From Clostridia bacterium (GTDB lineage: Bacteria; Bacillota; Clostridia; Christensenellales; Borkfalkiaceae): a DNA stretch of 64,000 nucleotides. The position numbers and the translations under genes were made by a program. The stretch covers positions 1-64,000 of the forward strand of contig JAFTKX010000056.1 in the NCBI GenBank assembly GCA_017453045.1, read 5' to 3'. Of the stretch, positions 53,425-54,238 are shown in pieces. The notes under the pieces were generated by a model. The model was not told the origin of the DNA, searched no databases, and saw only the letters and a program-made list of their open reading frames with translations. How positions within the stretch are numbered: the first letter of the stretch is position 1; each line of letters begins with the position of its first letter.

Positions 53425-53453
53425 TTGATTAAACAAATTGTATATGTTATACT
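53425..53453 (+). promoter_or_regulatory. Promoter of the structured RNA
   Basis: TTGATT 53425-53430, 17 bp, TATACT 53448-53453. The predicted start is 53459-53460, the first base of the closing helix. Confidence 0.75.
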
Positions 53454-53456
53454 AAA

Positions 53457-53663
53457 AGTGCCAAACCAACTGAATATTTAAGCAAAGACTATTTTTATTT
53501 ACAGGGATAATTATATTCTTTTTGCGTTATGTCCATAATGAATTTGATAAAAATGCAAATTCCTACTGGATATAGCGTAGAGTTGTTCTTGCTTTTCAGT
53601 TGGTTTGGCGACTATCGGAGTTTGCGTTTTTTCGGTGCGTTAACTTCGGTTAACGCACTTTTT
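53457..53663 (+). ncRNA. Putative structured RNA, about 200 nt (6S-like architecture or leader)
   Basis: GCCAAACCAACTGAA (53460-53474) pairs perfectly with TTCAGTTGGTTTGGC (53595-53609), extended by AGT/ACT past a bulged G to 18 bp. A second helix AAGCAA/TTGCTT (53480-53485 with 53589-53594) follows a five-base bulge. Inside lie a large internal loop and an apical hairpin around CGTTAT-GTCC-ATAATG (53525-53540). A perfect terminator, GTGCGTTAAC-TTCG-GTTAACGCAC then TTTTT (53635-53663), ends it. Length and rod shape fit 6S RNA, but I see no conserved core to prove it. It could instead be a leader of the downstream gene. Confidence 0.55.
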
Positions 53664-53698
53664 AATTAAAAACAAAAAGCCGAAAAAAGGAGAACAAA

Positions 53699-54061
53699 AT
53701 GAAAAAAATTACAACTTTTTTACTTGCTTGTTTAACGATTGCAACTATTTTATCTTTTACGTCTTGCGCAACAAAGAGAGAAAAAGACGCGTTGCGAACA
53801 GCTCAAAGATTTATTGATACTTTTGCAATATCTGAACAAAAAATAATGGAAGATCTTGAAAATTTAGGATATTCATATGAAGAAATAGAGTATGCAATGG
53901 ATAAATGTGATGTAGATTGGTATGATGAAGCTGTTGAGGCAGCAGAGAATTTACTTGAAAGTTCAACTAATCTGACGGAAGATCAAATAATTGCTTGGTT
54001 AGAATTGGCTGGGTTTACGAGTTCTGAAGCTGAATATGCAGCAGAAGAAGTATTAGAATAA
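53699..54061 (+). CDS. Ltp-like surface lipoprotein
   Basis: 120 residues. Signal peptide with lipobox FTSC (Cys23), then two repeats of the Ltp type: ALRTAQRFIDTFAISEQKI...LGYSYEEIEYAMDKC (about 30-70) and AVEAAENLLESSTNLTEDQI...AGFTSSEAEYAAEEV (about 80-118). Ltp domains were described in a phage superinfection-exclusion lipoprotein and occur in many surface proteins. Codons are AT-rich (GAT, GAA, GTT, TAT) compared with neighbours, hinting at transfer. With only 36 nt after the upstream terminator, it has no promoter of its own. Confidence 0.7.
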   Translation: MKKITTFLLACLTIATILSFTSCATKREKDALRTAQRFIDTFAISEQKIMEDLENLGYSYEEIEYAMDKCDVDWYDEAVEAAENLLESSTNLTEDQIIAWLELAGFTSSEAEYAAEEVLE

Positions 54062-54163: not shown

Positions 54164-54238
54164 GGTGCGTCCGCCGGGGCTCGAACTCGGAACGGAGCCG
54201 TCGGAGGGCTCTGTTTTATCCAATTAGACTACGGGCGC
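54163..54238 (-). tRNA. tRNA-Arg (anticodon CCG) with three C-A mismatches
   Basis: 76 nt with encoded CCA; loop CTCCGAC gives anticodon CCG, and the anticodon stem GAGCC/GGCTC is perfect. Three stems each contain one C-A mismatch: acceptor C4-A69 (GCGCCCG with CGGACGC), D stem C12-A23 (GTCT with AAAC) and T stem A52-C62 (CCGAG with CCCGG). Every mismatch would be repaired by A to G on the tRNA strand. It may be a degrading or unusual tRNA. Reads CGG codons. Confidence 0.85.

Follow-up and report, generated by a model that had tools for sequence, protein, structure and literature searches.

Between positions 53425 and 54061 of the window (the whole 64,000-nucleotide stretch of Clostridia bacterium contig JAFTKX010000056.1 analyzed here), a promoter, a structured RNA, a terminator, and a lipoprotein gene follow one another on the forward strand, raising the question of whether the RNA is a free-standing transcript or a leader whose terminator controls the gene behind it. 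The sequence-only reading had put forward both possibilities. The evidence described below favors, with a probability of roughly 0.8, a cis-acting transcription-attenuating leader RNA belonging to a new family that occurs in many copies in Clostridia.

The probable leader locus and its fold

The consensus promoter claimed for this locus was found at 53425-53453 as a sigma-70-type promoter, in which a -35 box TTGATT (53425-53430) and a -10 box TATACT (53448-53453) with an extended -10 motif are separated by a 17-nt spacer. Transcription probably starts at the base of the closing helix P1, around position 53460, and the entire transcribed leader from there to the U run of the terminator (53459-53663) forms a unit of about 205 nt, in agreement with the structured RNA of some 200 nt proposed earlier. 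Its fold is far more stable than that of dinucleotide shuffles (-74.8 versus -40.1 ± 4.0 kcal/mol for the 208-nt unit, z -8.7, reached by 0 of 200), and the domain without the terminator also gives a z of -8.7. Covariance model R1 scores this copy at 191.7 bits (E 1.9e-33), with the copy itself in the seed.

P1 pairs 53459-53474 with 53595-53610, and in the minimum free energy (MFE) fold of the window copy it comprises 16 contiguous pairs including one U.G, rather than the 18 base pairs claimed. Covariation across homologues supports this helix, with compensatory changes in 8 of 13 family pairs in a first alignment and in 11 of 13 among 103 sequences. The apical hairpin P4 (53540-53562, GAATTTG-ATAAAAATG-CAAATTC), present in the MFE fold and the alignment, is 91.7% paired and has compensatory changes in six of its seven pairs. 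It is borne by P3 (53521-53581), a helix between 53521-53535 and 53567-53581 that recurs in MFE folds of sequence-divergent homologues. The side hairpin P2a, around GGGATAATTATATTC (53503-53520), appears in MFE folds and is conserved in sequence in the long subtype (alignment A1). In the predicted folds of many copies, P2, P2a, and P3 would meet in a three-way junction; reliable alignment of these three helices was impossible, so no covariation count is given for them.

An intrinsic terminator closes the unit (53635-53663), with a 10-bp stem (53635-53644 with 53649-53658), the UUCG loop noted previously, and a U run. The gene behind it begins at 53699, 35 nt past the U run instead of the 36 nt claimed, and is preceded by the ribosome-binding sequence AAGGAG (53687-53692). 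This putatively regulated gene (53699-54061) encodes a 120-aa lipoprotein with an Ltp domain (PF07553, E 5.1e-13 in Pfam), and it matches the superinfection exclusion family phrog_4980 in PHROG (E 3.3e-17). A tRNA gene adjoins it at 54166-54238. Synteny comparison around the window copy showed that relatives of the same genus keep the tRNA-mnmA side and differ in the region upstream of it; clean insertion at an empty site was rejected on this ground in favor of a variable region, and the surroundings of the tRNA may be a variable hotspot.

A multi-copy family in Clostridia

The window RNA is one copy of a multi-copy family not previously catalogued, something that the sequence-only reading had no means of revealing. 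Four copies occur in its own genome and related sequence in 38 of 101 relatives, frequently several copies each; their distribution is patchy even within one genus. The copies run from promoter to terminator, with different flanks. Model R1, built from 21 copies, found matches in 80 of 396 genomes of the order and in 82 of 391 genomes of the class Clostridia, and none outside the window's own genome among 299 genomes sampled across the phylum. When more candidates were scored, 12 selected genomes proved to contain 6 to 14 matches each. A pattern of the conserved 3' tail matched at least 119 stretches in species genomes, nearly all of them full-length model matches; the 80 titles listed among these belong to metagenome assemblies that carry the name of Clostridia, of one of its families, or of Bacillota, and the animal sites named among the listed matches are mostly ruminant, deer, or rabbit.

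Across 122 non-redundant members, the element is conserved at 1.08-1.24 bits per position and the promoter at 0.61, compared with 0.07-0.08 in distant flanks, so that conservation stops where the unit stops. Together with the compensatory changes in P1, this contrast between helix-bearing element and flanks marks a structured unit far beyond chance. The poor conservation relative to flanks that would have told against the sequence-only reading is thus not observed. A -10 box (at least four of six positions) lies at the same place in 223 of 226 copies, 174 of which also carry a -35 box at 16-18 nt spacing.

Copies are also found on mobile elements. The phage record MT835503.1 from human faeces (L349) carries one that scores 125.8 bits and precedes a gene for an EcoRI-type methylase, and leader copies are present on three viral contigs; on plasmids, no copy was matched at the sensitivity used. 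In bacterial as well as phage records (L104, L115, L241, and L349), the gene directly following the leader is repeatedly one for an EcoRI-type adenine methylase.

Rfam 15 scans at gathering and permissive thresholds returned only tRNAs and chance matches. Neither 6S RNA nor any other Rfam family was matched, and no family rose above chance, whether for the window copy or for the further copies included in the scans, among which five belong to the short subtype; the earlier statement that no known riboswitch core is present was therefore right. The literature search, which covered published descriptions outside the supplementary motif tables of large screens, likewise yielded no described motif matching the family. 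By these comparisons the family is new, whereas the type of device to which it belongs, the attenuating leader RNA, is known.

A shorter subtype of 150-190 nt, which lacks the P2a hairpin, is detected by R1 at lower scores. It keeps the same pairings, with P4 and tail sequences that differ from those of the long subtype and among themselves. Loci of this subtype (L280, L289-L292, and L299-L332) also lie before genes for secreted proteins, and in genome G669 the 14 model matches are without exception low-scoring and of short-subtype length.

Competing pairings around the conserved tail

Covariation supports three states that compete around one conserved 3' tail: the pseudoknot P5, an antiterminator, and neither of the two, which frees the terminator. 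The terminator itself is 98.6% paired in 126 sequences, with 79 double-changed cells versus 15 in shuffles. The tail, GGAGTTTGCGTTTTT (53617-53631), provides strand b of P5, and its 5' part together with 53614-53616 provides the 5' strand of the antiterminator.

In P5, the loop and 3' strand of P4 (AAAAATGCAAATTCC, 53549-53563), identified as the tail's partner by covariation and the own-partner test, pair as AAAAAUGCAAAUUCC with GGAGUUUGCGUUUUU of the tail. The cells of this pairing are 96.7% paired, with 13 double-changed cells versus 3.5 ± 1.6 in shuffles and 14 versus 2.2 in another alignment, mainly AGA/UCU exchanges. In the long subtype P5 is mostly conserved sequence and only four of its 15 pairs truly covary. 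The antiterminator (53614-53651) joins CAAUCGGAGU of the tail to ACUUCGGUUG of the terminator loop and 3' arm (53614-53622 with 53642-53650), and an inner UGCG/UGCG helix forms with the terminator 5' arm (53623-53626 with 53636-53639). It is 95.7% paired, with 37 double-changed cells versus 9.3 ± 2.6 in shuffles, counted in an alignment built on the P1/P4/terminator structure, with the antiterminator playing no part in the fit; another alignment gives 43 versus 11. Sliding the partner by one column lowers the pairing from 96% to 27-37%.

Each tail also pairs better with the partner of its own copy than with foreign ones. In the long subtype the z values are -8.3 for P5 and -12.2 for the antiterminator; in the short subtype, mean energies are -15.6 kcal/mol with the own P4 strand versus -11.3 with foreign ones (z -10.3) and -12.9 with the own terminator versus -10.2 (z -6.7). 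In both subtypes the observed mean was reached by none of 1000 permutations, although these own-partner controls leave in place the relatedness of the copies, which also inflates the shuffle controls above. With the same caveat, the short subtype lends independent support to the competing pairings.

In the window copy, the antiterminator is favored by the nascent tail while the transcript grows from about position 190 to 198, and the terminator takes over from position 200; until the last terminator pairs are made, the antiterminator is the most stable local fold of tail and terminator. Because of this preference up to about position 198, a free tail could delay termination and a tail held in P5 could not.

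A course of events compatible with these pairings can be proposed. RNA polymerase would start at the base of P1, and the P1-P2-P2a/P3-P4 domain would fold first, followed by the tail with its two alternative partners. Where the tail pairs with the loop and 3' strand of P4, P5 would form as a pseudoknot across P1; a tail so engaged could not make the antiterminator, so that the terminator would form and transcription stop. Where P4 stays closed, the tail would be free to pair with the emerging loop, 3' arm, and 5' arm of the terminator, and polymerase would read into the gene once this antiterminator has formed.

Downstream genes and the nature of the signal

Of 221 distinct copies, 147 are followed at 8-45 nt past the terminator by a start codon with a Shine-Dalgarno motif and 181 by one within 150 nt, the other 40 having no clear start there. 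Random positions give corresponding frequencies of 4.4% and 15.4%, and the divergent side of the element gives 0.9% and 9.9%. The family thus combines a repeated same-strand position 5' of genes with an intervening terminator and a covarying antiterminator, the features of a transcription-attenuating leader, which lends good support to the earlier alternative of a leader with a gene-regulating terminator: the unit recurs before the starts of many unrelated genes, and its tail supplies both antiterminator and anti-antiterminator. Tandem or closely spaced leaders were seen at L014, L044, L234, L243, L308, L333, L335, and L338, and wherever such an arrangement was inspected, no clear gene could be assigned to the first copy.

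Lipoproteins are about eight-fold enriched among the otherwise diverse downstream genes: in a subset of loci, a regular expression found a lipobox in 49 of 139 downstream proteins versus 40 of 669 other genes (odds ratio 8.6, p 2e-18). A Pfam scan of 150 downstream proteins gave BspA-type leucine-rich repeats (LRR) most often (17), then zinc ribbons (13), with surface repeats and Ig-like, dockerin, EcoRI-type methylase, SPFH, and YspA/SLOG domains coming after these. No pathway is common to these genes, and by analogy such a set may resemble a second-messenger regulon. Genes that look as if they encode SLOG/YspA-like proteins, whose folds sense nucleotide derivatives, stand behind the leaders L143, L226, L257, and L243 (3232-3684), and the scan of 150 proteins includes two matches to the Pfam YpsA model; these genes are possibly a hint to the signal. 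Likely regulators, recognized by eye behind some leaders, include a Rho-N-like small protein (L111, 2157-2483) and an AbrB-like protein (L182, 1575-1805).

Several known systems share parts of this organization. Terminator-type riboswitches, including second-messenger classes such as that for c-di-GMP in Clostridioides difficile (reviews PMC11477304 and PMC6366702), are likewise 5' leaders with a large P1-closed domain and anti-antiterminator/antiterminator/terminator logic, and they occur in many copies per genome before surface and accessory genes. The present family differs from known riboswitches in its fold, the lack of an Rfam match, the sequence conservation of tail and terminator, and a promoter fixed at the base of P1. 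It also resembles the orphan riboswitch candidates from genome-wide searches (for example PMC11109978, PMC8040213, and PMC2864571), which are intergenic, were recognized by conservation and covariation, and have no assigned ligand; within the section and terms consulted in two of these sources, no such motif is named.

Comparative analysis establishes P1, the terminator, the antiterminator, and P5 as existing, covarying pairings and places the element before genes. A signal would then choose between the states. Architecture, copy number, and type of regulon favor a small molecule, most likely bound by the P1-P4 domain, and stabilization of P4 would turn the gene on. Several points count against the preferred reading: P5 must span a rod of about 30 bp, for which the junction has to fold back; gene-less tandem leaders exist beside the 40 copies without a clear start; and there are the inflated shuffle controls and the few truly covarying P5 pairs of the long subtype noted above.

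The main rival to a small molecule, clearly the less probable of the two, is that a trans-acting RNA-binding antiterminator protein or another RNA throws the same attenuator, with P4 or its loop as the binding site. P4 and tail are nearly fixed in the long subtype while P1 varies, their near-identity among paralogues would permit trans pairing between copies, and no feature found here indicates a ligand pocket. Typical protein-binding antiterminator sites, however, are smaller than a 150-nt three-way-junction domain, and the short subtype alters the P4 and tail sequences yet keeps own-partner complementarity, which fits pairing in cis and not a fixed protein site. That the element is a signal-free expression cassette, with a strong promoter and a leaky terminator setting a low or stochastic level of accessory-gene expression, is improbable: promoter, leader, and terminator do move as a unit before unrelated, sporadic genes, with patchy copies even within a genus, but a constant terminator would not need three mutually exclusive pairings kept by selection.

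Very little weight falls on an independent noncoding RNA that lies upstream of genes by chance. Such an RNA, 6S RNA for example, is a rod-like molecule of about 200 nt with its own promoter and terminator, as here, and some tandem copies indeed lack a gene of their own; the rod-shaped 6S-like alternative nevertheless fails on the absence of a match to 6S or any other Rfam family, the up to 14 copies per genome, the leader position directly before a same-strand start codon in two thirds of them, and the switch architecture with its covarying antiterminator. An antitoxin of a type III toxin-antitoxin pair such as ToxI/ToxN, in which promoter, RNA, terminator, and gene stand in the same order, is practically negligible as an explanation, since the family has a single domain in place of a tandem RNA repeat array and no conserved toxin, its downstream genes being mutually unrelated and mostly lipoproteins, LRR, and zinc-ribbon proteins. 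A retron-like RNA was discarded on inspection because the downstream genes vary without a common reverse transcriptase. A leader peptide is unlikely: the transcript probably starts at P1, internal open reading frames of at least eight codons with a Shine-Dalgarno-like motif occur in only 29 of 122 copies, and early stop codons in other copies interrupt the apparent small frame with which the 5' end of L002 begins.

Returning to the attenuating leader with a small-molecule signal, there is about an even chance that the family is a new riboswitch class with two subtypes, a candidate sensor of a signaling molecule whose regulon would consist of lipoproteins, LRR surface proteins, zinc-ribbon membrane proteins, and mobile accessory genes of gut Clostridia. 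The exact pairings make mutational testing immediately possible, and a regulon delimited by the leader that its genes share would offer a direct handle on the signal. If this reading is right, a large family of RNA switches, with up to 14 copies per genome, controls surface and accessory genes in uncultured Clostridia of the gut and rumen.
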